Source of the DNA: Imperialibacter sp. EC-SDR9
Lineage (GTDB): Bacteria > Bacteroidota > Bacteroidia > Cytophagales > Cyclobacteriaceae
Reading direction: 5' to 3'
DNA: 64,000 bases
Assembly (NCBI RefSeq): GCF_902498805.1
Contig: NZ_LR701575.1
Span: 66,454-130,453 of the forward strand
How positions within the stretch are numbered: position 1 is the first letter of the stretch; every line of letters starts with the position of its first letter. The translations under genes were made by a program, and so were the position numbers. This document shows positions 21,584 through 34,683 of this stretch, piece after piece. Under the pieces are notes generated by a model that worked only from the letters and a program-made list of their open reading frames with translations, had not been told where the DNA came from and made no database searches.

Positions 21584-22966
21584 TTGGGTGCTCTCTCCTA
21601 CTCTCAGTTCGACGATACCATTGTGGCGCTTGCTACCCCTCAGGGCATTGGCGCTATTGCCGTTGTTCGCCTTTCCGGGCCTCAGGCGATAAGTATCGCC
21701 AATGCAGTCTTCCATGGCAAAGACCTTGATGCAGTCGACTCGCACACAATACATTTTGGCACTATCAGAGAAGGCAAAGAGGTCATCGACGAAGTGTTGA
21801 TGTCGGTCTTCATTGCCCCCAGGTCGTTTACCAAAGAAAACGTGGTGGAGATTTCCTGTCACGGGTCGTCGTATATCATCAAGCGCATCATTAACCTCCT
21901 CGTGAGCAAGGGAGCCAGGTTGGCCAAGCCAGGCGAGTTCACCAAAAGGGCATTTCTCAACGGGCAATTTGATCTGGCCCAGGCCGAGGCAGTAGCCGAT
22001 GTGATCAGCTCCGATTCCGAAGCGGCCCACCAGGCGGCCATGTCGCAGATGCGGGGAGGCTTTTCGAAAGACATCAAACAACTGCGGGAGCAGCTCATCC
22101 ACTTTGCCAGCATGATTGAGCTGGAGCTGGACTTCGGCGAAGAAGATGTGGAATTTGCCGATCGTCACGACCTGGCGAAGCTGGTCAACGACCTGAAAAC
22201 GATCATCAACCAGCTGATCAAGAGCTTCGATTTGGGCAATGTCATCAAAAATGGCGTGCCCACAGTGATTGCAGGCAAGCCAAACGCCGGCAAGTCTACC
22301 CTGCTCAATGCTTTGCTTAAGGAAGAAAAGGCGATCGTTTCTGACATCGCCGGCACCACCCGTGACTCCATCGAAGATGAAATCAATATTGAAGGCGTGG
22401 CTTTCAGATTCATCGACACGGCTGGCATCCGAGAAACAACCGATGTCATCGAAGCGCTGGGTGTGGAAAGAACGCACAGCAAAATGAAGGAAGCTTCGCT
22501 GATCCTTTACCTTTTTGACCTGGTGAACGACAACATCACCGACATCAACAAAGAGATAAACAAGCTGGAGAACCTGGGTAAACCGTTTATTCCTATCGGG
22601 AATAAGATAGACAAAGCACCCGCTGCTCTGGTGGCTCAGCTAAAAGAAGATGACAGGTTTATCTTTATTTCTGCCTCACAGCAGCAATACCTGGAAGAGC
22701 TGAAAGACAAGATCCTCGATCAGGTCAACCTGAAGAACATCCGCAGCAGCGACACCATCGTGACCAACGCCCGCCACTTTGAAAGCCTGCTGAAAACCAG
22801 CCAGGCCCTGGATGATGTGCTCACTGGCATCGGCTCCAACGTCACTGGCGACTTCCTGGCCCTTGACATCCGGCAGGCCCTCCACCACCTCGGTGAGATT
22901 ACCGGTGAGGTAACTAATGATGACTTGCTGGCAAATATCTTTAGTAAGTTTTGTATCGGAAAATGA
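21584..22966 (+). CDS. mnmE: tRNA uridine-5-carboxymethylaminomethyl modification GTPase MnmE
   Basis: MnmE with MnmG builds the cmnm5 modification at wobble uridine 34 of several tRNAs. The 460-residue protein has the N-terminal tetrahydrofolate-binding domain (DTIVALATPQGIGAIAVVRLSG, CHGSSYIIKRI, GEFTKRAFLNGQFDLAQAEAV). The G domain has G1 GKPNAGKST, G2/G3 GTTRD and DTAGIRE, and G4 NKID. The invariant C-terminus FCIGK carries the catalytic Cys457. The start is a TTG at 21584; a TAA sits in frame just upstream at 21578 and no ATG precedes the conserved DTIVA. The final codons and the TGA stop lie in a recombination junction (22949-22966) and overlap the next gene's ATG. Confidence 0.95.
   Translation: MGALSYSQFDDTIVALATPQGIGAIAVVRLSGPQAISIANAVFHGKDLDAVDSHTIHFGTIREGKEVIDEVLMSVFIAPRSFTKENVVEISCHGSSYIIKRIINLLVSKGARLAKPGEFTKRAFLNGQFDLAQAEAVADVISSDSEAAHQAAMSQMRGGFSKDIKQLREQLIHFASMIELELDFGEEDVEFADRHDLAKLVNDLKTIINQLIKSFDLGNVIKNGVPTVIAGKPNAGKSTLLNALLKEEKAIVSDIAGTTRDSIEDEINIEGVAFRFIDTAGIRETTDVIEALGVERTHSKMKEASLILYLFDLVNDNITDINKEINKLENLGKPFIPIGNKIDKAPAALVAQLKEDDRFIFISASQQQYLEELKDKILDQVNLKNIRSSDTIVTNARHFESLLKTSQALDDVLTGIGSNVTGDFLALDIRQALHHLGEITGEVTNDDLLANIFSKFCIGK
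22949..22962 (+). repeat. attL-like core: direct repeat at the 3' end of mnmE
   Basis: TTTTGTATCGGAAA is identical to 25079-25092. Here it encodes FCIG plus the first two bases of the final Lys codon of MnmE and is followed by A-TGA. At the right copy the same frame reads FCIGK then TAA. Duplication of the mnmE end is the expected footprint of a tyrosine-recombinase island integrating at this gene. Confidence 0.75.
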
Positions 22967-23517
22967 AAATTAAGATAGCAGACATTAGTCCATATCTGGA
23001 AAGCCTTAGTGAGAAAGAAAAGGATAAGCTGATCGCCCGGTTGCTGACAAAAAACCAGGCTGAGCTGGAGGCAATTTATTTTCAGAAGGTGGCTTCAAAA
23101 AACGACCTGGAAGATCTATTTGCCGATGTAAAAGCTGAAATAGAAGACGCCATGAATGTTTATATCAATTATGGTGTCATACAAAAGAACCTTGCCAAAG
23201 GCATCCAAAAGGCTACACAGGCAATCAACCGTTATAAGGCAATTGATCGGCGACCGGAAAAAGAGGGCGAACTGATCATGTATATGCTGGAGATCATTTT
23301 TACGGATTTCGGCAATGAATTCGGCACTTGCTGGACAGTTTTTGATTTTAGGGTAGCGCAAGCGATATCTAAAGTAGTCACAATTGTTACCAGGAAAATC
23401 CACGCAGACTACAGAATGGACTTTGAGGGTAAAATCAATGGACATATACGGCGACTTAAGGCCGAGGCTTCCCACAATGACGTGATTTACAACTTGCCGG
23501 ATAGGATAACCTATTGA
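22963..23517 (+). CDS. Hypothetical all-helical protein coupled to mnmE
   Basis: I do not recognise this 184-residue cytoplasmic protein. It is predicted to be largely alpha-helical, with charged heptad-like segments (SEKEKDKLIARLLTKNQAELE, NDLEDLFADVKAEIEDAMNVYI in outline). A more hydrophobic middle contains FGNEFGTCWTVFDFRVAQAISKVV. The C-terminal part is basic (RKIHADYRMDF, GHIRRLKAEASH). There is no signal peptide or membrane helix. Its ATG overlaps the mnmE stop (ATGA), and that overlap lies exactly at the attL-like junction. The integration event therefore appears to have placed the gene under mnmE transcription and translation. No function is assigned. Confidence 0.75.
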   Translation: MKIKIADISPYLESLSEKEKDKLIARLLTKNQAELEAIYFQKVASKNDLEDLFADVKAEIEDAMNVYINYGVIQKNLAKGIQKATQAINRYKAIDRRPEKEGELIMYMLEIIFTDFGNEFGTCWTVFDFRVAQAISKVVTIVTRKIHADYRMDFEGKINGHIRRLKAEASHNDVIYNLPDRITY

Positions 23518-23710
23518 GCCACCCCCGGAACTGACAGGGGCATCAACTTCACTTGCATTTAGCAGTCTGTCTTCTCCTCTTTCACCCTTGTCAAGCCGTC
23601 GATCTCCGTCTTCGATAGAGAATCGTTCAAAAGAATGGTATTCAACTCATACTTAGTTTTCGTATCTTTGGTCAAAGTCATTCGTTAATAGCTGTAAACA
23701 AATTTTGACA
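23518..23710. other. Promoter-bearing spacer before the antitoxin/PIN pair
   Basis: No coding sequence is visible. TATCTTTG at 23663-23670 fits TAnnTTTG and lies about 40 bases before the antitoxin start, so the pair probably has its own promoter. Confidence 0.35.
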
Positions 23711-23914
23711 ATGCTGGTAGAGAGAAAAAATAATGAAATAATCGTCACCCTTGATGGAGCTGTGAACGTCGACTTTCTCCAACAAACACTGGACTACTTG
23801 CGCTATTTGGAACTAGGTGCAAAAAGTAAAGCCAGCCAAGCTCAAATTAACCAATTGGCGCAAGACGCAAAAAAAGGCTGGTGGGAAAAGAACAGAGATA
23901 AGTTCATTAAGTGA
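23711..23914 (+). CDS. Small antitoxin-like protein preceding a PIN gene
   Basis: The 67-residue product starts at an ATG at 23711. It has a beta-rich start (RKNNEIIVTLDGAVNVDFLQQTLDYLRYLEL) and a C-terminal helical segment rich in Gln, Lys and Trp (QINQLAQDAKKGWWEKNRDKF). This matches small antitoxins found ahead of PIN-domain toxins in Bacteroidetes, where the N-terminus would bind operator DNA and the tail the toxin. Its stop overlaps the GTG start of the PIN gene (GTGA). I rely mainly on context and size; the family cannot be named with confidence. Confidence 0.6.
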   Translation: MLVERKNNEIIVTLDGAVNVDFLQQTLDYLRYLELGAKSKASQAQINQLAQDAKKGWWEKNRDKFIK

Positions 23915-24147
23915 AATTAGTAGTTGACACCAACATCCTGTTCAGTGCTCTCTTAAACTCCGAAGGTAAAATCGGCCATCTTCTTTTTAATTCTCTTCAT
24001 GTATTCGAATTCTATAGTGTCAACTTCCTCAAAGAGGAGATTAAGGAGCACCAGAGAAAAATTATGCTCATTTCGGGGTTCACCGAAGAAGAGTTCAATG
24101 AGCGAAAAGCGCTGACTTACAAGCAAATTAAAGAATCCACCCTCTAA
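23911..24147 (+). pseudogene. PIN-domain toxin gene, truncated at an IS200-type element
   Basis: The start is GTG, overlapping the antitoxin stop. The product begins MKLVVDTNILFSALL, the first PIN motif with catalytic Asp6, and continues with NFLKEEIKEHQRKI. It stops after 78 residues at KQIKESTL, where the left end hairpin of the IS begins. PIN toxins of this type are usually about 130 residues, so roughly the last 50, including the later acidic active-site residues, are missing. I do not find them beyond the IS. The gene is therefore probably inactive as a ribonuclease. Confidence 0.7.
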
Positions 24148-24673
24148 GAAGGTGGACTTGATTATGCCCCTATAAGGGGCCAAAGTCCAGCTTTTGCTGT
24201 TCTTCTAGTTTTTCCTGCTTTTCTTGATACTTCACATATCGCCTGATTTTCTCTTCGTCTAGTCCTATTGTGTCTACACAATAACCTCGTGACCAAAAGT
24301 GATTCCCCCAGTATGGCTTCTGCTTCAACTGAGGATAACTTTTGAATGTCTTTATAGCCGTCTTGCCCTTCAAGACTCCCATCAGTTGCGATATCGATAC
24401 TTTTGGTGGAACACTAACTATTAGATGCACATGGTCAATCTGTATATTGAGTTCCTTCTTTTCACACGCCTTCCATTCCAAAAGCATCAACAAATCCTTT
24501 TCAAGTTGTTGTTTTACTAAACCTTCGAGTACTTTGAATCGATATTTTGGAGTCCATACTATATGGTAATCACATCGATACAATACATGACTTAGCTTTT
24601 TAAAATTGCTCATCATGTAAATATAAAACTTCAGGCTAAGCCAATTATACATGACCACCTTCAAAGAAGGTGG
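24137..24673 (-). mobile_element. IS200-type insertion sequence
   Basis: One Y1 transposase gene is framed by near-identical end hairpins. CCACC...GGTGG lies at 24137-24155 and again at 24655-24673, and the 11-bp word AAGAAGGTGGA recurs at 24146 and 24664. A second hairpin GCCCC-TATAA-GGGGC (24166-24180) overlaps the transposase stop. There are no inverted terminal repeats or target duplication, as expected for IS200/IS605 single-strand transposition. No tnpB is present. The exact ends are uncertain by a few bases. Confidence 0.75.
24170..24613 (-). CDS. tnpA: IS200/IS605-family transposase TnpA (Y1 HUH)
   Basis: The 147-residue transposase is of full length for the family. It has the HUH motif in QIDHVHLIVSVPP (His61 and His63), the conserved YHIVWTPKYR start, YWGNHFWSRGYCVDTIG, and the catalytic tyrosine in EEKIRRYVKYQ (Tyr126). 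It cuts and rejoins single-stranded DNA through a tyrosine intermediate, usually at the lagging strand of replication. ATG at 24613 (MSNFKKLSH) is preferred over upstream in-frame starts because conserved sequence begins there. No frameshift is seen, so it may be active. Confidence 0.93.
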   Translation of the reverse strand: MSNFKKLSHVLYRCDYHIVWTPKYRFKVLEGLVKQQLEKDLLMLLEWKACEKKELNIQIDHVHLIVSVPPKVSISQLMGVLKGKTAIKTFKSYPQLKQKPYWGNHFWSRGYCVDTIGLDEEKIRRYVKYQEKQEKLEEQQKLDFGPL

Positions 24674-24984
24674 ATTTCTCAGTTATATTAAAGAACAAGG
24701 CAAGCTTTATTCAACAATTCAAGACTTATGACCCTGACATCCTGATTCCAGAATTAAATGTAGCAATCGAATACAAGTTTATTCGGAAGGGCAATATCAT
24801 TGAGGATTATATAGATCAAGTGAAGACGGACGCAAATAACTATAAGGGAGATAATAGATATGAAAACTTCGTAGCGGTGTTATGCATTGAGGACAGTGCG
24901 TCAGCAACTGAGGATAACATAAGAGAATCATGGACGGCTAAAAACTTTCCCGATAACTGGGATCTGGTGGTGGCCTTTTTGTAA
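24670..24984 (+). pseudogene. 5'-truncated PD-(D/E)XK nuclease-like gene
   Basis: The frame is open from the right IS end to 24984. Its first codons come from the IS end, so the natural start is lost. The remaining 100 or so residues contain DPDILIPELNVAIEYKF, an Asp...Glu-x-Lys arrangement typical of PD-(D/E)XK nucleases. DYIDQVKTDANNYKG and ENFVAVLCIED follow, and the tail is DNWDLVVAFL. Such C-terminal domains occur in phage-defence and mobile-element endonucleases, but this assignment rests on a short motif. No start signal is visible, so it is probably not expressed as an active enzyme. Confidence 0.5.
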
Positions 24985-25020
24985 AGATAGTTTCATGTCT
25001 AAACTCACTAAACCTGACTG

Positions 25021-25064
25021 ATTTGTACCTTATTTGTACCTGACTATTATAACTACCTGACTAT
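25021..25064 (+). repeat. Cluster of short direct repeats beside the attR-like site
   Basis: ATTTGTACCT occurs at 25021-25030 and 25032-25041. TACCTGACTAT occurs at 25037-25047 and 25054-25064, with a related CCTGACTGAT at 25013-25022. They end 15 bases before the right 14-bp core. Tyrosine recombinases and excisionases bind such arm-type repeats next to their crossover cores. Confidence 0.55.
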
Positions 25065-25078
25065 CAACACTAATTACT

Positions 25079-25092
25079 TTTTGTATCGGAAA
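25079..25092 (+). repeat. attR-like core: second copy of the mnmE 3' end
   Basis: TTTTGTATCGGAAA repeats 22949-22962. In the MnmE frame it reads FCIGK and then TAA at 25094-25096, so it probably preserves the original end of mnmE before integration. Confidence 0.75.
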
Positions 25093-25152
25093 GTAAATAA
25101 CGATCACCAGCAATGAAAAAGTGTGCGGCTGTGAATCGGATTGCGATATAAA

Positions 25153-25167
25153 TTACATTTTATGTAA
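25153..25167. promoter_or_regulatory. Palindromic operator before the HigB/HigA cluster
   Basis: TTACAT-TTT-ATGTAA is a perfect 6-bp-arm inverted repeat 22 bases before the toxin ATG, followed by the related word TTTACATTTACA. HigA-type antitoxins repress their own promoters by binding such sites. Confidence 0.5.
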
Positions 25168-25189
25168 CTTTACATTTACAATTGAAGTA

Positions 25190-25486
25190 ATGAGGATTGT
25201 AACGTTCCGAAGGATCAGGGAATACACCGAAAAGGTGCCGGAGGCCAAAACAGCCCTGGAAGAGTGGTATCACAAAACCAGCAAAGCCAGTTGGGAGAAT
25301 TTCCGGGAGATGAGACAGACCTTTAATAGTGTGGACCATGCCGGAAGCAACCGGTATGTTTTCAACATCAAAGGAAATAAATTCCGGCTGATTGCTATAG
25401 TGATTTTTGCTTCAAAAAAAGTGTATATCCGGTTTATCGGTTCACATTCTGAATATGACGACATTCAGGACTATTCAAGTATCTAA
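25190..25486 (+). CDS. higB: HigB-family toxin (RelE/HigB mRNA interferase)
   Basis: The 98-residue product matches HigB toxins. It starts MRIVTFRRIREYTEKVPEA, and the core has ALEEWYHKTSKASWENF and NRYVFNIKGNKFRLIAIV. It ends VYIRFIGSHSEYDDIQDY. These proteins cleave mRNA on the ribosome and are neutralised by HigA. The ATG at 25190 fits the family's usual N-terminus; an upstream in-frame extension does not. It precedes its antitoxin by 11 bases, the toxin-first order typical of higBA. It lies just outside the right att-like repeat. Confidence 0.9.
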   Translation: MRIVTFRRIREYTEKVPEAKTALEEWYHKTSKASWENFREMRQTFNSVDHAGSNRYVFNIKGNKFRLIAIVIFASKKVYIRFIGSHSEYDDIQDYSSI

Positions 25487-25497
25487 AGAATACGGAT

Positions 25498-25851
25498 ATG
25501 ATCAAAGAAAAGGAATATAAAAAGTACCTGGCACGGATCGAAGAGCTTCTAAAGGTTGTGGGCAATGATACCTCTCCGGAAGACCCAACATTTGTCGAAC
25601 TTGATGAAATATCTGACCTCGTTGCTGAGTACGAGGAAGCTCACCTGCCGGTAGCTACGCCTGGGCTGATCGATGTGATCCGGTTACGCATGTCTGAGAT
25701 GGGCCTAAGCCAAAAGGAGCTTGCTGAACTCCTTGGAACATCCGCCAGCCGGATCAGTGAATACTTAAAAGGCAAGCGTGACATTACCCTGGACATGGCT
25801 AAGACTATACATAAAAAGCTGAACATCGATGCTGACATTATTCTCCAGTAA
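25498..25851 (+). CDS. higA: HigA-family antitoxin with C-terminal HTH
   Basis: The 117-residue protein has the HigA layout. A helical, acidic N-terminal half (EYKKYLARIEELL, ELDEISDLVAEYEEAHLPV) wraps the toxin. A C-terminal Xre-type helix-turn-helix (LSQKELAELLGTSASRISEYLKGKRDITLDMAKTIHKKL) binds DNA. It should neutralise the neighbouring HigB and repress the operon. Its 3' end overlaps the following HTH gene by 23 bases in another frame. Confidence 0.9.
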   Translation: MIKEKEYKKYLARIEELLKVVGNDTSPEDPTFVELDEISDLVAEYEEAHLPVATPGLIDVIRLRMSEMGLSQKELAELLGTSASRISEYLKGKRDITLDMAKTIHKKLNIDADIILQ

Positions 25852-26185
25852 AGAAAGACTGCCGGCAAACGACCTAGTACCAGGATCGGCTATGCATCCT
25901 GGAGAGCTTTTAAAAGACGAGCTGGAAGCCAGGGAAATGAAGCAGATTGAGTTGGCAAAGGCACTTGGTATTGCCAAGAATATAATGTCTGAGCTGATTG
26001 GAGGAAAGCGAAACATCACTCCAGAGTTGGCTGTTCGCCTGGAAGATGCCCTTGGCATCAAAGCAGGATTTTGGATGAAATACCAGGTTGCCTATGAGAT
26101 CGATAAGATCCGGGTCAAGAACAAAAAGGCTATGGAGAAGGCCGATATCCCAACAAAGACTAAAGTGCAAATGGCTTCAATTTGA
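25829..26185 (+). CDS. Second HigA/VapI-type HTH antitoxin-like protein without its own toxin
   Basis: The 118-residue product has the signature of the HigA/VapI addiction-module antidote family: MHPGELLKDELEAREMKQIELAKALGIAKNIMSELIGGKRNITPELAVRLEDALG and GFWMKYQVAYEIDKI in blocks. This is a different family from the preceding HigA. ATG at 25829 overlaps higA by 23 bases; ATG at 25892 (MHPGE) is the alternative start and begins exactly at the conserved domain. Its usual HigB-1-like toxin partner is not present upstream. It may be an orphan, or an accessory regulator of the HigB next door. Confidence 0.8.
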   Translation: MLTLFSSKERLPANDLVPGSAMHPGELLKDELEAREMKQIELAKALGIAKNIMSELIGGKRNITPELAVRLEDALGIKAGFWMKYQVAYEIDKIRVKNKKAMEKADIPTKTKVQMASI

Positions 26186-26203
26186 GAGCAAAAACTTCTT
26201 TAT

Positions 26204-27284: not shown

Positions 27285-27726
27285 ACATGCCCGACACTGG
27301 AATCCGCCTACCCACACCATGTAGTTTTTGACAGGTATAATTTTTTTCGTTCGGAGGAATACCTACAAAAGCTAACTCATCGTCGCTTCTATGCCCTTCA
27401 GTGCAACCTCGGCAAAGTGCAGTTCTTCGTATGCACGCTACACTGGCCCTAATCGGTTTGAGGCAGGTAGGAACAACATCCCTGGCCTGCTCCGTTGGCT
27501 TTCATGCACTTCCGACAGCATGATCTGAATTACTATTAGGGTAATTGTTTTTTATTAGAATAATACAATTAATAATTTATATAGTGCAGCAAGTAATCGG
27601 CAGGTAATCAACCTAATAGAAGCCAGCCGCTACTTCAATATCTATCAAAAAACCGACCCTCTTCTATTGAAATGCTCTTTTTCGTCCGTAGATTGGGAGA
27701 TATTCGATCATTTTTTTTCTGTACCT
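27285..27726. other. Long intergenic region with a possible decayed minus-strand gene end
   Basis: The left part (27372-27523, minus strand) reads as a plausible protein C-terminus in one frame (RAYEELHFAEVALKGIEATMS and stop), interrupted upstream by an in-frame TAG. It may be a gene remnant. The right part (27530-27600) is very A+T-rich and probably holds the promoter of the giant surface-protein gene. I cannot name a function for either. Confidence 0.3.
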
Positions 27727-30700
27727 ATGTCAAAATTTCGCTGGGTTCTTTTTTTGATCTTATTTAGCAACAATGCCTTTTCCCGGGCTGCAACCCCCAT
27801 CATCAAAAGTTTTTCGCCAACCTCTGCCAGAGTTGGAGATAAGGTAATTATCAAAGGCGAAAACTTCGATGACAAGTCAGAAGGAATGCAGGTATTTATC
27901 GGCGGAGTAGTGGCAAAAATTACAAGTGGCAGCACCACGGAGCTGGAAGTCACTGTGCCACTGGAGGCCAAAATGGGGCCAATTATCGTCGTTTCGTCGA
28001 CTGGCATGGTGGCCACCTCTAACCTCGACTTCATCCCGACATACAGCGACGGTGTTGCCATCATCGACACCAACGCTTTCGGCCCTGAAACCACTATTTC
28101 GACAGATGACAATCCCGAAAGATTAGAAAGTGCTGATTTCGATGGAGACGGCCTCATAGATCTTTTGATGACGCTAACCGGATCGAAGCCCAGCCTGAGT
28201 ATTTTGAGAAACACCACGGATAAAAGTGTTCCTTCTTTCGACGTCACCCCCTATCCCGTCACTTTCGGAAACAATCAGGGAGCAAAAATCCATGACCTGG
28301 ATGGTGATGGAAGGCTCGACATTGTCTGCTGGGGAAGTACCTCCCCGGGAATTGTGGTGATGGCTAATGAAAGTTCACCCGGTGAAATCTCTTTTAGCCC
28401 AGCAACTACCCTGGGCATTGAAGGCACACCTCATATTGGCCTTGTGCTTTCGGATCTTGATCAAGACGGCAAAGTTGACATTGCTGCTATCACAGGAAGC
28501 TCAATCAATATTTACTACAATACCAGCACAATAGGCAAGATCACCTTCACAGGTTCCTCTACCCTTGCCATTGGCGGTGGCGACCTGACGGCAGGCGATT
28601 TGAATGATGACGGGATCCCTGAACTCATTCGAGCCTTTGGAACCAGTTTAGACGTTATCACCAATACCAGCACGCCGGGAAAACCTTCCTTCGGTCCTTT
28701 GACTAGCTTTAAACCTAATTCAGCTGCGGCAATCGTGAGAGCGGCTGATATGGATCAGGATGGTTTCTTGGACATCATTGTAGGATCCCAGACTGCTACT
28801 GTCATAGAAATATTCAGAAATGCCTACGCCAGCGACGGAAAAATTACATTGGATGAACCTCTTGGATTCAATACTGGAGAAGGCTCGTCGAGCTATGGCG
28901 ACTTCTTTGATGTAGGTGATATCAATGGAGATAAGCTGCCCGATATCGCCGTTCCCTCGGTGACCGAAGATCGGATTTTTGTTTATGGCAACAAGAGTGA
29001 GCCGGGCACCATTGCCATGCACGAAGTCGTCGTTTTTGGTACCTCCTCAGCACCGTTTGCTGATCAGCTGGATGACATCGACGGAGACGAAAGACCTGAC
29101 CTGATTTATACCAACCGCCAGGCCGAGGGGAAGGGAATGCTGAGCATAAGACTTAATCAGACTGAGGCCCCAGAGCCAGAAATTAATGTCTACAACGGTG
29201 CAACTGACGCATCTTCAGTTATTACCGACGCACAAGGGACAGCCATCAACTTTGGTAATGCGGTACAGGGAAACAACATCACCCGAACTTTTGCTATCAA
29301 AAATACAGGAACGAGTTCGCTCAATGTCAGCAGCATTACTGTTTCCGGCTCAGCCTTCAGCGTGAACAGTTCTATTACCTCCATTGCAGTGGGCGCCACC
29401 CAAACGTTCACTGTTCGGTTGTCTGGCACAAATGCCGGCACTTTCAGTGCCACCGTCACTATCAACAACAATGACGCTGACGAAAATCCATTTACATTTC
29501 CTGTAACAGGTACCATCCTGGCGCCAGAAATCAATGTGTACAACGGGGCTACGGACGCTTCTCCTGCAATCACTGATGCACAAGTCGCTGTCATCAACTT
29601 TGGCAATGCAGTACAGGGCAACAACATCACAAGGACTTTTGCGATCAAAAATACCGGAACGAGCGTACTCAATGTCAGCAGCATTACTGTCTCCGGCACG
29701 GCCTACGCTGTCAGCAGTGGGATCACCACAGTGGCTGTAAGTGCTACGCAGACCTTCACTGTGACTCTTTCCGGCTCCAACACAGGCACATTCAATGAAA
29801 CGGTGACCATTGCCAGTAACGACGCCGACGAAAACCCTTTTACCTTCCCTGTAAGAGGCGTCATCACCTTTCCTGAAATCAATGTTTACAACGGCGACAC
29901 GGACGCCTCTCCTGTAATCACTGATGCACAAGTCGCTGTCGTCAACTTTGGCAGTGCGGTGCAGGGCAACAGCATCTCCCGAACTTTTGCTGTCAAAAAC
30001 ACAGGGACAAGCATGCTCAATGTCAGCAGCATTACCGTTTCCGGCACGGCCTACAGCGTCAGCAGTGCCATCACCGCAGTGGCTGTGGGCGCTACCCAGA
30101 CTTTCACTGTGACTCTTTCCGGCTCCAACACAGGCACATTCAATGAAACAGTGACTATTGCCAGTGATGACGCAGACGAAAACCCTTTCACCTTTCCTGT
30201 AAGGGGCACTATCACCTTTCCCGAAATCAACGTTTACGACGGTGCCACTGACGCCTCTCCCGTAATCACCGATGCACAAGTCACTTCTATCAACTTTGGC
30301 AGTGCGCTACAAGGAAACAATATTACCAGGACTTTCGCTATCAAAAATACCGGAACGAGCGTACTCAATGTCAGTAGCATTACTGTTTCGGGCACTGCCT
30401 ACAGTTTGGTCAGCGTCATCGCATCTGTTGCCGTGAATGCCACGCAAACTTTTACCGTGACCCTGTCGGGCACCAACCCAGGCAGTTTCAATGAAACAGT
30501 GACCATTGCTAGTAACGACGTAGATGAAAATCCTTTCACTTTCCCCGTAACCGGCACCATCACTGCACCGGAGGTCGATGTTTATAATGGCGACAACGAG
30601 GCCTCGCCAGAGATCATCGATGCGCAAATCACACCGATCAGTTTTGGTGGTGCACTACAAGGAAACGACATTACAAAAACGTTTGCTGTTAAAAACTCCG

Positions 30701-33700
30701 GGACTAGCACGCTAACTATCAGCAGTATAATTGTTACAGGATCGGACTATACTGTCAACAGTTCAATCGGAGCGTTGAGTGCCGGCACTACTCAAACTTT
30801 TACAATTACCTTATCAGGGGCAATTACAGGCACCTTTGATGCGATGGTCACGATTTCGAGCGACGATACCGACGAAAATCCCTTTACGTTCTCCATCACA
30901 GGCGGCATATCTGAGCCAGAGCTAGACGTTTTCTATGGAAGTAGCAATGCTGGTTTTCCCATCATGGACGGGCAGTTGTCAGCCATCGATTTAGGATCCG
31001 TTTTGCAGGGAAATGATATCATACAAACATTTGCTATAGAAAACACCGGGTCATTGCCTCTGGAGGTAAGCAGCATTAGTGTTTCGGGCACTGACTTTAT
31101 CGTTACCAGTTCAATCTCGACAGTTGCAGTCGGCATAACAGAGACATTTACTATCACCCTTTCTGGCGCAACCATGGGCACCTTTAATGCTACAGTGACC
31201 ATCACCAGCAACGACACCAATGAAAACCCATTCACCTTCCCTGTAACAGGTGCCATCACCTTGCCCGAGATCAACGTATACGACGGTGCCACTGATGCCT
31301 CACCGGGGATTACCGATGCGCAAGTGCCCGCAATTAACTTTGGTAGTGCGGTACAAGGAAGCGAGATCATAAGAACCTTTGCAATTAAGAATTCGGGGAC
31401 GAGCACACTCAATATCAGCAACATCACCGTTTCCGGCACCGATTACAGCGTAAACAGCGCCATCTCAACGGTTGCTGCGAATGCAACGGAAACCTTCACT
31501 GTCAGCCTTTCAGGAACCAACACAGGCAACTTCAGCGCTACCGTAACCATCACAAGCGACGATGCTGATGAGAGCGATTTCACTTTCCCTGTAACTGGCA
31601 CAATCACCTTCCCTGAGATCAACGTCTTCGATGGTGCCACAGACGTCTCACCATCAATTACCGATGCACAAGTGACCGCAATCAATTTTGGTAGTGCGGT
31701 ACAAGGAAGCGAGATCATAAGAACCTTTGCCATTAAGAATTCGGGGACGAGCATACTCAATGTCAGCGGCATCACCGTTTCAGGCACCGATTACAACGTA
31801 AACAGCGCCATCTCGACGGTTGCTGCGAACGCAACGGAAACCTTCACTATCAGCCTTTCAGGCACCAACACAGGCAACTTCAGCGCTACCGTAACCATCA
31901 CAAGCGACGATGCTGATGAGAGCGATTTCACTTTCCCTGTGACTGGCACAATCACCTTCCCTGAGATCAACGTCTTCGATGGTGCCACTGATGCCTCGCC
32001 GGGAATTACCGATGCGCAAGTGACCGCAATTAACTTTGGTAGCGCAGTACACGGAAGCGAGATCATAAGAACCTTTGCAATTAAGAATTCGGGGACGAGC
32101 GTACTTAATGTCAGCAGCGTCACCGTTTCCGGCACCGATTACAACGTAAACAGCGCCATCTCGACGGTTGCTGCGAACGCAACGGAAACCTTCACTATCA
32201 GCCTTTCAGGCACCAACACAGGCAACTTCAGTGCTACCGTAACCATCACAAGCGACGATGCTGATGAAAGCGATTTCACGTTCCCCGTGACTGGCACAAT
32301 CACCTATCCGGAAATAAACATGTTTGCTGGTAATGACAACACGGCGTCAGCTATTTCTGATGACCAGACAGAAACTATTAGTTTTGAACCTACTGTTAAA
32401 GGGACTGACGTTCCCAGAAATTTCACTATTGAGAATACCGGCACCAGTGCTCTTAACATAAGTAGTGTGACTGTTTCTGGGGCAGATTTCAGTGTTTCCA
32501 GCGCCATTACTTCCGTCGCAACAAATGCATCAGCCAACTTTAGTATAACCCTTTCAGGGGCAAATGCGGGCACCTTCAATGCCACAGTCACGATTGCGTC
32601 TGACGATGCGGATGAAAATCCATTCACCTTCCCCATTACCGGAACGGTCACATATCCTGAGATCAATGTCTTCGCCGGCACGGACAATACGGCCACCATG
32701 ATCACAGATGGTCAAACCTCTGCTGTAGAGTTTGGTAGTTCAGTGCAGGGCAATCCGATTACCCGTACTTTTGCCATACAAAATGCTGGCACCAGTGTAC
32801 TCACCGTTAGCGGTATAACCTTGTCCGGTACTGATTTCAGCGTTTCCAGTGCCATTACCAGTATTGCCGCTGGCGCTACGGAAACATTCACCGTCACACT
32901 GTCGGGGGACAACACCGGTAACTTTAGCGCCGATGTGACCATCGGCAGCGACAACAGTGGCGACAACTCATTTACCTTCCCTATTACTGGCTCCATCACC
33001 TATCCCAACATTGCAGTGTTTGCCGGAGAGGACAATTCGGGAGAAGCAATATCTGATGAACAAGCCACTCCGATTAGCTTCGGAAGTGCTGTTCAGGGAA
33101 GTAATATCGTAAGAACATTCGCTATTGAAAATACAGGTACGAGCACACTAACCATCAGCGAGGTCACCGTTTCAGGTACTGGTTACAGCGTGACCAATGC
33201 TATTACTGCTATTGCCGCTGGGGCTACCCAAACGTTCACCCTTACCCTTTCGGGCACTGATACCGGCACTTTTGATGAGATCGTAACGATTACAAGCGAT
33301 GATGCAGATGAAAGCCCGTTCACGTTTCCTGTATCTGGCACTATCACCTTTACTGAAATCAGTGTTTTTGCCGGGACAGAAAACACGGCTCCTGCTATTC
33401 TCAACGGTCAGCCGGCACCTGTAGACTTTGGAAGCGCAGCAGAGGGAAGCGAGATTTCTCAGGGTTTTGCCATTGAAAATACCGGCACCAGCAACCTCAA
33501 CATCAGCGCCATTACTGTCGACGGAACAGCCTTCAGTGTCAGCAGTACTATCGCCAGTATCTCACCCGGAAACACCGAAATGTTTACAGTAACTCTATCT
33601 GGTGCCAATGCAGGCATGTTCAATGCCACCGTTGCTATCATTAGCGACGACCTGGATGAAAGCTCATTTACATTCCCCATAACCGGCGAAATATTATCTG

Positions 33701-34683
33701 GAGTGCCTCTGGTACCTGAAATAGAAATATTTGTGGGAAGCAGCGACACCGGCACAAGTATAACTGATGGACAATCCACCGCCATTGAAATGGGTACCAC
33801 CGAACAGGGTGCCGACCTGGAAGCGGTCTTCACAATCAAAAACACGGGAAATGCTGCGCTCGAAATCTCAGGCATCACCTCTTCAAGCGAAGTATTCAGT
33901 ATTCTGTCGTCAATAACAAGCTTACTGCCGGGAACAACCGGGCAGTTTACAGTAGTGATGGACGCCTCGGCGGGGGGAGATTTCACTGCAACTATTTCCA
34001 TTGCCAGCAATGACGACGATGAAGCAGATTTTGACTTTTCGGTCAGTGGAAAAGTTGAATTTGAAGAGATGCAAGTAATAGAGGAAAGCAACAACAAGCT
34101 GATCACTTCCAACACGACAGTCAACCTGGGCACCACTCAGTTTGGAGACCCTATTTCCAAAGTATTTTTTATCGCCAACCCGTCAGAAAATGAAATCTTG
34201 ATAATTCATTCCGTTGAAATCACAGGTGACGAATTTGAGGTGGCGCAGGTACCAGAAACCGTTGAAATTGGCGAAACAGGCCTGCTTGAGGTAGTGCTTC
34301 GGGCAACAGCCGAGGGGAGCTTCTCGGGTACCGTGACGATCAAAAGTAACTTCGCCGATTTTGTTTTTGACGTGTCGGGTGAGGTTGGGCCCAGAAACAA
34401 GACCATTCATGTCTTTAACGTGCTTACCCCCAATGGCGATGGAAAACATGATTTTCTGAAGATTGAGCGCATTACCGAATACGCAAATAATTCGGTTTCC
34501 ATTTTCACCAAGGCAGGCAAACTGGTGTATCAAGCTGACCGGTATGACAACATAGATATCAAATTTGAAGGCAATGGGAATGTTGGCAGCAATCAGGCTC
34601 TGGATGCCGGCACTTATTATTACCTGATCAAGCTAGAGCGTGGGAAAAATGAATCCGGATTCATTCAGCTACTAAGAGACTAA
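27727..34683 (+). CDS. Giant T9SS-secreted repeat protein (IPT, FG-GAP, choice-of-anchor-D-like repeats, type B sorting domain)
   Basis: The 2318-residue surface protein starts at ATG 27727 with a signal peptide (WVLFLILFSNNAFSRA). An IPT/TIG domain (about 23-105) has SFSPTSARVGDKVIIKGENF. About seven FG-GAP/VCBS repeats (about 115-480) carry Ca-binding-like DxDxDG loops such as ADFDGDGLIDLL and HDLDGDGRLDIV. Fourteen 116-residue HYDIN/choice-of-anchor-D-like repeats run from residue 484 to 2112, followed by a degenerate fifteenth. The final 95 residues are a gliding-motility-associated C-terminal (CHU_C) domain (FNVLTPNGDGKHDFLKIE), the type B signal for export by the type IX system. It is followed 2 bases later by a PorP/SprF gene. 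A role in adhesion or gliding is inferred. Confidence 0.93.
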   Translation: MSKFRWVLFLILFSNNAFSRAATPIIKSFSPTSARVGDKVIIKGENFDDKSEGMQVFIGGVVAKITSGSTTELEVTVPLEAKMGPIIVVSSTGMVATSNLDFIPTYSDGVAIIDTNAFGPETTISTDDNPERLESADFDGDGLIDLLMTLTGSKPSLSILRNTTDKSVPSFDVTPYPVTFGNNQGAKIHDLDGDGRLDIVCWGSTSPGIVVMANESSPGEISFSPATTLGIEGTPHIGLVLSDLDQDGKVDIAAITGSSINIYYNTSTIGKITFTGSSTLAIGGGDLTAGDLNDDGIPELIRAFGTSLDVITNTSTPGKPSFGPLTSFKPNSAAAIVRAADMDQDGFLDIIVGSQTATVIEIFRNAYASDGKITLDEPLGFNTGEGSSSYGDFFDVGDINGDKLPDIAVPSVTEDRIFVYGNKSEPGTIAMHEVVVFGTSSAPFADQLDDIDGDERPDLIYTNRQAEGKGMLSIRLNQTEAPEPEINVYNGATDASSVITDAQGTAINFGNAVQGNNITRTFAIKNTGTSSLNVSSITVSGSAFSVNSSITSIAVGATQTFTVRLSGTNAGTFSATVTINNNDADENPFTFPVTGTILAPEINVYNGATDASPAITDAQVAVINFGNAVQGNNITRTFAIKNTGTSVLNVSSITVSGTAYAVSSGITTVAVSATQTFTVTLSGSNTGTFNETVTIASNDADENPFTFPVRGVITFPEINVYNGDTDASPVITDAQVAVVNFGSAVQGNSISRTFAVKNTGTSMLNVSSITVSGTAYSVSSAITAVAVGATQTFTVTLSGSNTGTFNETVTIASDDADENPFTFPVRGTITFPEINVYDGATDASPVITDAQVTSINFGSALQGNNITRTFAIKNTGTSVLNVSSITVSGTAYSLVSVIASVAVNATQTFTVTLSGTNPGSFNETVTIASNDVDENPFTFPVTGTITAPEVDVYNGDNEASPEIIDAQITPISFGGALQGNDITKTFAVKNSGTSTLTISSIIVTGSDYTVNSSIGALSAGTTQTFTITLSGAITGTFDAMVTISSDDTDENPFTFSITGGISEPELDVFYGSSNAGFPIMDGQLSAIDLGSVLQGNDIIQTFAIENTGSLPLEVSSISVSGTDFIVTSSISTVAVGITETFTITLSGATMGTFNATVTITSNDTNENPFTFPVTGAITLPEINVYDGATDASPGITDAQVPAINFGSAVQGSEIIRTFAIKNSGTSTLNISNITVSGTDYSVNSAISTVAANATETFTVSLSGTNTGNFSATVTITSDDADESDFTFPVTGTITFPEINVFDGATDVSPSITDAQVTAINFGSAVQGSEIIRTFAIKNSGTSILNVSGITVSGTDYNVNSAISTVAANATETFTISLSGTNTGNFSATVTITSDDADESDFTFPVTGTITFPEINVFDGATDASPGITDAQVTAINFGSAVHGSEIIRTFAIKNSGTSVLNVSSVTVSGTDYNVNSAISTVAANATETFTISLSGTNTGNFSATVTITSDDADESDFTFPVTGTITYPEINMFAGNDNTASAISDDQTETISFEPTVKGTDVPRNFTIENTGTSALNISSVTVSGADFSVSSAITSVATNASANFSITLSGANAGTFNATVTIASDDADENPFTFPITGTVTYPEINVFAGTDNTATMITDGQTSAVEFGSSVQGNPITRTFAIQNAGTSVLTVSGITLSGTDFSVSSAITSIAAGATETFTVTLSGDNTGNFSADVTIGSDNSGDNSFTFPITGSITYPNIAVFAGEDNSGEAISDEQATPISFGSAVQGSNIVRTFAIENTGTSTLTISEVTVSGTGYSVTNAITAIAAGATQTFTLTLSGTDTGTFDEIVTITSDDADESPFTFPVSGTITFTEISVFAGTENTAPAILNGQPAPVDFGSAAEGSEISQGFAIENTGTSNLNISAITVDGTAFSVSSTIASISPGNTEMFTVTLSGANAGMFNATVAIISDDLDESSFTFPITGEILSGVPLVPEIEIFVGSSDTGTSITDGQSTAIEMGTTEQGADLEAVFTIKNTGNAALEISGITSSSEVFSILSSITSLLPGTTGQFTVVMDASAGGDFTATISIASNDDDEADFDFSVSGKVEFEEMQVIEESNNKLITSNTTVNLGTTQFGDPISKVFFIANPSENEILIIHSVEITGDEFEVAQVPETVEIGETGLLEVVLRATAEGSFSGTVTIKSNFADFVFDVSGEVGPRNKTIHVFNVLTPNGDGKHDFLKIERITEYANNSVSIFTKAGKLVYQADRYDNIDIKFEGNGNVGSNQALDAGTYYYLIKLERGKNESGFIQLLRD
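29176..34062 (+). repeat. Tandem array of fourteen 348-bp coding repeats
   Basis: Units start at 29176, 29524, 29872 and so on every 348 bp. Only unit 13 (33352-33714) is longer, by 15 bp. Each encodes 116 residues beginning PEINVY/F and ending DENPFTFPVTGTIT. Units 7, 8 and 9 (31264-32307) are almost identical at DNA level over their second halves, so they were duplicated or homogenised recently; the outer units are more divergent. A degenerate fifteenth unit follows at 34063-34392. Confidence 0.9.

Follow-up and report, generated by a model that had tools for sequence, protein, structure and literature searches.

The window analysed here, a 64-kb stretch of Imperialibacter sp. EC-SDR9 (contig NZ_LR701575.1, C29 in our numbering), carries mnmE (trmE), and the last codons of this gene recur downstream at the far end of what are probably the remains of a mobile element inserted at its 3' end. 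A scan of the window found exact same-strand copies of the 14-mer TTTTGTATCGGAAA at 22949 and 25079, a spacing of 2,130 bp. Read in frame with MnmE, the left copy is TTT TGT ATC GGA AAA TGA (22949–22966) and the right one TTT TGT ATC GGA AAG TAA (25079–25096), F C I G K stop in each case. The duplicated 14-mer followed by a Lys codon and a stop, described in an earlier note on this DNA, is confirmed. The features on which the argument turns are:

21584–22966, + strand: mnmE (trmE), a 460-aa open-reading frame (ORF), intact through FCIGK-stop
22949–22966, + strand: left core, attL-like, 18 bp TTTTGTATCGGAAAATGA, the working mnmE end
22963–23517, + strand: 184-aa protein, function not assigned by families, its ATG overlapping the mnmE stop (ATGA), common to the sister genome G001
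25023–25040, + strand: paired TTGTACC motif TTGTACCTTATTTGTACC, putative right-end arm sites for the integrase, the only exact copy in the genome
25079–25096, + strand: right core, attR-like, 18 bp TTTTGTATCGGAAAGTAA, the probable original mnmE end, with an identical 18 bp in G001 (L034, position 18504)

Across the 6.8-Mb genome (64 contigs) the 14-mer has three exact forward matches and no reverse match, with none for the reversed-pattern control; the third copy, on contig C44, lies inside an unrelated 923-aa ORF (LptD-like by eye) and is taken as chance. With up to two mismatches the 14-mer has three matches in the window, a count reached in 2 of 100 window shuffles, and with up to three mismatches the 18-mer has two, reached in 4 of 100. 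Such controls within the window alone are modest, and the weight rests on the position, phase and exactness of the repeat at the mnmE end. The 5' flank of the right core is ATTACT vs. AGTAAG in mnmE, with no resemblance to mnmE outside the core, and because the sequence upstream of the right copy is unlike mnmE, the repeat is confined to the last 18 bp of the gene. No third core was found right of 25096 in the window (up to three mismatches). A repeat arisen by chance or gene conversion, with no mobile element involved, would suit the shortness of the 14-mer, its one further genomic copy and the few shuffles that reach the observed counts; however, the sister genome, the arm motif, the joined sites and the relatives described below all agree against it, and right-end matches at mnmE in other genera contradict it, which leaves it very improbable. 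Neither of the two findings named beforehand as refuting an insertion, relatives with the same gene order and no second copy or a 14-mer abundant in the genome, was seen.

The paired TTGTACC motif ties the right end of the repeat to other genomes, 390 of which, all from the same order, were searched. The right-end pattern TTACTTTTTGTATYGGNAARTRR was found in seven of them (reversed control 0): the window's genome, G040, G085, G211, G380, G083 (on a 7.4-kb contig) and G305 (at a contig end), and in G040, G085, G211 and G380 it closes an integrase-bearing element. From the start of TTGTACCTTATTTGTACC to the start of the core there are 56 bp in the window, G085, G211, G380 and G083; in three IMG/VR contigs picked up by the arm motif (L145, L146 and L147) the distance is 78 bp. 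The pair is a variant in G380, and also in G026, whilst in G001 it begins CTGTACC, which the script missed, with the same spacing as the window by position. The arm pattern TTGTACCTYAYTTGTACC gave 18 matches in 16 of the 390 genomes (reversed control 0), a single one in the window's genome, at 25023, and 15 of the 18 are inside an mnmE island or precede an mnmE-end core. In G244 no core was seen, the pair lying 3.9 kb past mnmE on its 3' side, and two do not fit: that of G212 is next to an integrase with no mnmE seen, that of G152 on a 7.7-kb contig without mnmE, before an altered core-like sequence. Judged from sequence, the TTGTACCTTATTTGTACC motif may represent the arm sites of the integrase.

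We surveyed the DNA 3' of mnmE in 40 of 58 relatives, with downstream lengths of ~4 to 19 kb; the other 18 were near contig ends, had no full mnmE or were not fetched. MnmE is 98% identical in G001; for the other relatives whose matches are near full length, identity is 45–72%. In 39 of the 40 regions the mnmE end could be placed, and a second copy of it occurred in ten (G001, G002, G015, G017, G026, G030, G035, G040, G045 and G055); a stricter 15-base test on the 32 regions that passed the filter gave nine direct second copies vs. two inverted ones, which served as control. In G035 and G045 ~15 bp upstream of the core are also shared between the copies. Duplications of the mnmE 3' end longer than a core were seen in G002 (~270 bp; L035) and G055 (~150 bp; L036), 1.2 and 2.5 kb downstream, and possibly reflect another integration mode; these two and that of G015 (~60 bp) were set aside as apparently different kinds of event.

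Integrases of a single family begin ~160–660 bp past the mnmE end in 10 of the 40 regions, and G026 and G040 have both the integrase and the second mnmE end. Their elements, of 11.0 and 12.7 kb, share the order mnmE, HTH_17 gene, tyrosine integrase, further genes, cargo and core; the integrase domains, called on the G026 proteins, are Arm-DNA-bind_5, SAM_5 and Phage_integrase, and the further genes include an AAA_25 ATPase (G026) and a zinc-ribbon/DUF6371 protein, read as primase-type. With the G026 integrase as query in the 390 genomes, an MnmE C-terminus was present within 1.5 kb upstream at 24 of the 30 best integrase loci; a longer reading of the other six showed mnmE in G222 and did not see it in five, and in a midpoint-rooted tree of 40 integrases, which carries no support values, these five fall among the mnmE ones. 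The integrase matched 460 phage and 513 plasmid records, with best identities among the matches listed of 46% and 45%, respectively; one phage record fell in the 60–80% identity band. The best named relatives among the plasmid records, again among the matches listed, are from Prevotella and Bacteroides (≤45% identity).

Two of the IMG/VR contigs, L146 (7,164 bp) and L147 (7,810 bp), begin and end with exact repeats, of 114 and 127 bp respectively, and each carries the integrase and a single joined site, with no mnmE seen. In both, the joined site runs from the right arm pair through the core to further TTGTACC motifs on the left-end side. Terminal repeats of this kind denote a circle or a tandem array; taken with the joined site, they are most simply explained if these elements circularise. 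No capsid or other structural gene was apparent by eye among the ORFs read in L146 and L147, which, though deposited in a viral collection, look like circular forms of an mnmE-targeting element. The third contig, L145, is a 73-kb viral contig with the arm pair 78 bp before a core, and no mnmE or integrase within the 10 kb examined.

Integrase-bearing elements at mnmE in relatives thus match the right end of the window in the paired arm-like motif, the 56-bp spacing, the ATTACT flank and the core. We think it probable that 22949–25096 derives from an element with site-specific integration into the last 18 bp of mnmE; a one-ended deletion would have removed the integrase, and the copy is probably immobile. 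The window has an insertion between two mnmE-end cores and a right end with the arm pair before an ATTACT-flanked core; it has no HTH_17 gene, tyrosine integrase or further element genes beside mnmE, and no left arm motif inside the left core. As the integrase and the element genes are absent, we refer to it as a derivative and not as a full member of the family.

The sister genome, G001, is the sole other genome of the genus in our search of relatives and has both cores, 8,540 bp apart. The right 18 bp are identical to those of the window, and the left copy ends GGGAAATGA in G001 and GGAAAATGA in the window. Between its cores lie the shared 184-aa gene beside mnmE, then a type I restriction system (hsdM, hsdS and hsdR) with PD-T4-9 components A and C; in the window this position holds fragments of a PIN gene and an endonuclease gene and, between them, an IS200-type transposase. 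Of the 64-kb window, 44.7 kb aligns to G001. The stretches of 550 bp aligned in full number 3,871, and outside 22.7–26.3 kb none of them exceeds 96.5% identity; inside, identity is 98.7% at 22951–23500 and up to 99.45% for 550-bp stretches within 25081–25850. At the left core, single-nucleotide polymorphisms (SNPs) fall from 25 in 22600–22960 to 8 in 22961–23520, with the change at 22960, and at the right core from 8 in 25041–25078 to 3 in 25079–25857, with the change at 25075–25079. SNP density therefore shifts at both cores, which marks both as breakpoints of recent exchange. Backbone-like density returns after 25857, with 25 SNPs in 25858–26190 (the third gene right of the core), so that the DNA from 25097 to ~25857 has also moved recently, its right boundary having no site-specific explanation so far, as no third core was found there. 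The earlier note had placed the end of the element at 25092; recently shared DNA continues to ~25857, through HigB/HigA-type genes, and the foreign region is therefore larger than first stated. Its proposal of an insertion at the mnmE 3' end, with the right copy most simply the original gene end, is supported by the divergence changes at both cores, and by the same right end on integrase-bearing elements at mnmE in relatives; no empty site, considered below, was found. The G001 restriction system also resembles cargo of the integrase-bearing element of G380, whose own system was recognised by this similarity (HsdM 73%, HsdR 66% and HsdS 49% identical), a likeness in favour of an origin through loss of the integrase half. 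By eye, the third gene right of the core has an in-frame TGA in G001 (L034/L042), where it is followed by an extra gene pair, ribbon-helix-helix and PIN-like.

The remaining genes between and beside the cores of the window are:

23711–23914, + strand: small ORF directly 5' of the PIN fragment, no family match (Pfam, NCBIfam, PADLOC)
23911–24147, + strand: PIN_2-domain fragment with roughly the N-terminal half of the domain, stopping at the insertion sequence (IS) (PF10130, E 1.7e-8, profile 1–68 of 133; no PADLOC match)
24170–24664, − strand: IS200/IS605-family transposase TnpA (Y1_Tnp PF01797, E 6.7e-37; NF033573, E 1.1e-39)
24670–24984, + strand: C-terminal fragment of a restriction-endonuclease-like protein (PF18742, profile 66–132 of 150, E 1.3e-7)
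25121–25851, + strand: HigB- and HigA-type genes immediately 3' of the right core (PF09907, E 2.9e-30)
25829–26185, + strand: third gene, HigA-type antitoxin (TIGR02607, E 1.2e-19; weak HTH matches only in PADLOC)

Between the repeats, where three overlapping ORFs of 60–119 aa also lie on shadow frames, family searches covered the five main ORFs, and no integration or transfer gene was found among these five in Pfam or NCBIfam. The earlier statement that no recombinase lies between the repeats thus holds for integrases, though not for the TnpA at 24170–24664. The DNA of the TnpA stretch is single-copy in the window's genome and has no match in G001, and we read the gene as part of an IS inserted into the cargo. 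The small ORF is, by position only, a candidate antitoxin, and helical-REase models in PADLOC match the endonuclease fragment weakly (best E 3e-7). The 184-aa protein has no Pfam match over the cut-off and no NCBIfam or PADLOC match; it is 98% identical in G001, has distant relatives in 3 of 57 other genomes, and a single-sequence model predicts an all-helical fold at low confidence (mean pLDDT 47). A pattern drawn from it gave 17 matches in genome contigs and three in viral contigs, none of them confirmed as relatives. The genes at 25121–25851 match PD-Lambda-2 components (PADLOC PD-Lambda-2_A 9.4e-32 and _B 1.6e-25), and these PD-Lambda-2-type genes lie outside both cores. The G+C fraction is 0.36–0.46 over 22750–25499 vs. 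~0.48–0.53 in mnmE. Further along the window, at 27667–34683, is a 2,338-aa ORF of many similar repeats, where the G001 alignment shifts between repeats, which suggests a change in repeat copy number between the two genomes.

The locus could have formed as follows. An element of ~7–15 kb would have inserted through a tyrosine-integrase crossover within the core, supplying new last codons to mnmE and displacing the old gene end to 25079. The integrase half would later have been deleted flush with the mnmE stop, by which the 184-aa gene became fused to mnmE in the ATGA overlap; deletions starting at the stop codon would be kept because the end of mnmE must stay intact. The cargo would then have decayed, by the IS200-type insertion and truncation of the PIN and endonuclease genes. 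With a single arm-bearing end left, the copy is probably immobile, while incoming elements might still use its cores as targets, and this would account for the difference in cargo between the sister species.

Alternatively, the cores and the right arm may suffice for a cis-mobilizable element that is still mobile, excised or moved in trans by the integrase of a related element. Both cores are kept, the right end is intact in sequence and spacing, integrase-bearing relatives are widespread and the sister genome carries different cargo. Yet the left arm motif that flanks the core in the joined sites of L146 and L147 is missing here, the cargo is broken, and no member of the integrase family was found in the window's genome or in G001 (best E 2.1e-9 and 3.3e-11); of four PF00589 matches in the window's genome none is on contig C29. 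We consider trans mobility unlikely. The earlier note had left the choice between a remnant and mobilisation in trans, and the remnant is the better supported of the two, given the absent left arm motif and the broken cargo.

Several observations weigh against the integrase-less derivative that we favour. No left arm motif was found at the left junction, even with three mismatches allowed, and because of this the left side is tied to the element family by the core alone. The right side has a caveat of its own, as an arm-like match with three mismatches allowed arises in 17 of 100 window shuffles, the window's own match being exact. None of the five complete integrase-bearing elements compared was found to have the 184-aa gene, and for that reason its status as element cargo is inferred. 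A 28-base junction pattern for the empty site had no match in genome contigs, a collection in which records near the window's genome may be missing, and the other genome found of the genus, G001, has an occupied site. Lastly, since recently shared DNA extends to ~25857 with no third core, a plain two-core insertion is insufficient for the whole pattern. In favour of the derivative, a search with 17 element proteins against the islands of the window, G001, G030 and G017 gave no match at E ≤ 0.1 (five short hits, E 0.14–0.71), where the positive control gave matches in four of four elements.

Some of these points would suit a composite locus, in which the left part (mnmE and the 184-aa gene) is a chromosomal allele and the right part a surviving element end, joined by recombination and not by one insertion. 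The left junction without an arm motif and the shared region that overruns the right core are as such a locus would have them, distant relatives of the 184-aa protein look chromosomal by eye, and G203 offers an analogue, with identical terminator-like sequence 3' of both its cores and an arm site on the right only, which points to some recombination step. Against this, the left core is exactly where divergence from G001 changes, and a boundary at a site-specific core explains that more simply; we regard a composite origin as improbable.

The integrase-less derivative in the window has counterparts elsewhere. Integrase-less islands with a right arm pair are present in G030 (3.4 kb; variant pair) and G203 (1.45 kb), the latter island (L149, 17064–18532) holding one gene with a tail-fibre/S74-type resemblance by eye. 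Clear PADLOC defence matches occur in G001 (PD-T4-9) and G015 (PDC-S27), whilst of nine right-end genes in G026, G040 and G085 one has a PADLOC match, and a weak one (DrmC-type, E 8e-7). This weighed against a simple reading of mnmE islands as defence carriers, which we set aside; defence genes are not a constant feature of them. The locus is a case of sister genomes with the same junctions and different cargo, with defence genes in one. More speculatively, the mnmE 3' end may be a docking site across the order for an undescribed family of small circularising integrase elements, some of 7–8 kb, whose stripped right-end derivatives (the window, G001, G203 and G030) persist as exchangeable slots loaded with new cargo, including defence genes, by integrase-supplying relatives; we put this forward tentatively, as a possibility that we do not hold to be the likelier case. 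The arm pair and core also form a searchable signature for integrase-less derivatives, which integrase-based surveys miss.

Among known systems, the closest likeness is to the integrase-bearing mnmE elements themselves (G026, G040, G085, G211 and G380, with L146 and L147), which share with the window the target, the 18-bp core, an ATTACT or GTTACT flank and the paired TTGTACC motif (variants in G026 and G380) 56 or ~78 bp before the right core, but which, unlike the window, have the HTH_17 gene, the integrase, further element genes and left arm motifs. A cis-mobilizable element (CIME) is defined as an element that has lost its integration genes and keeps its att cores, the same source setting out an accretion model (PMC5704250). 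The window likewise has lost the integration genes and kept the cores; a CIME keeps attL and attR, whereas the window has both cores but a recognisable arm motif at the right end only, and calling it a CIME requires that a single arm-bearing end be considered sufficient. In Bacteroidota, a Riemerella island with shown excision uses an Arg-tRNA and not mnmE (PMC6764341), and no mnmE-targeting element of the phylum was found among the matches listed in the open-access literature, subscription papers being outside the scope.

The earlier note had linked the repeat to SGI1 (Salmonella genomic island 1). SGI1-related elements insert site-specifically at the last 18 bp of trmE/mnmE, with the last 9 bp of attL coming from the element and the last 9 bp of attR from the gene, and the SGI1 backbone includes int, xis, rep, traN and traG (PMC9035990); the SGI1 integrase is grouped with Bacteroidetes integrases in the IntCTnDOT subgroup (PMC8138268). 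From their Pfam domains, the integrases of the mnmE elements found here may belong to that subgroup too. The window shares with SGI1 the insertion at the mnmE/trmE 3' end and the 18-bp site, and a remnant of an SGI1-family island would have the same target and the same site logic (PMC9035990). Unlike SGI1, however, its five main ORFs between the repeats match no SGI1-backbone-type family in Pfam, the host phylum presumably differs, and the nearest right ends belong to the integrase-bearing mnmE family of the order, so that a remnant of an SGI1-family island is exceedingly unlikely. Of the proposed connection, the site stands, the mnmE 3' end being that of SGI1, whilst the relatives found form a different element family. 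The repeat is thereby tied to a definable mobile family, with its own core, arm motif, integrase and joined site, at the site that SGI1 uses elsewhere; the window copy resembles the residue of an SGI1-like island and is not a member of SGI1.

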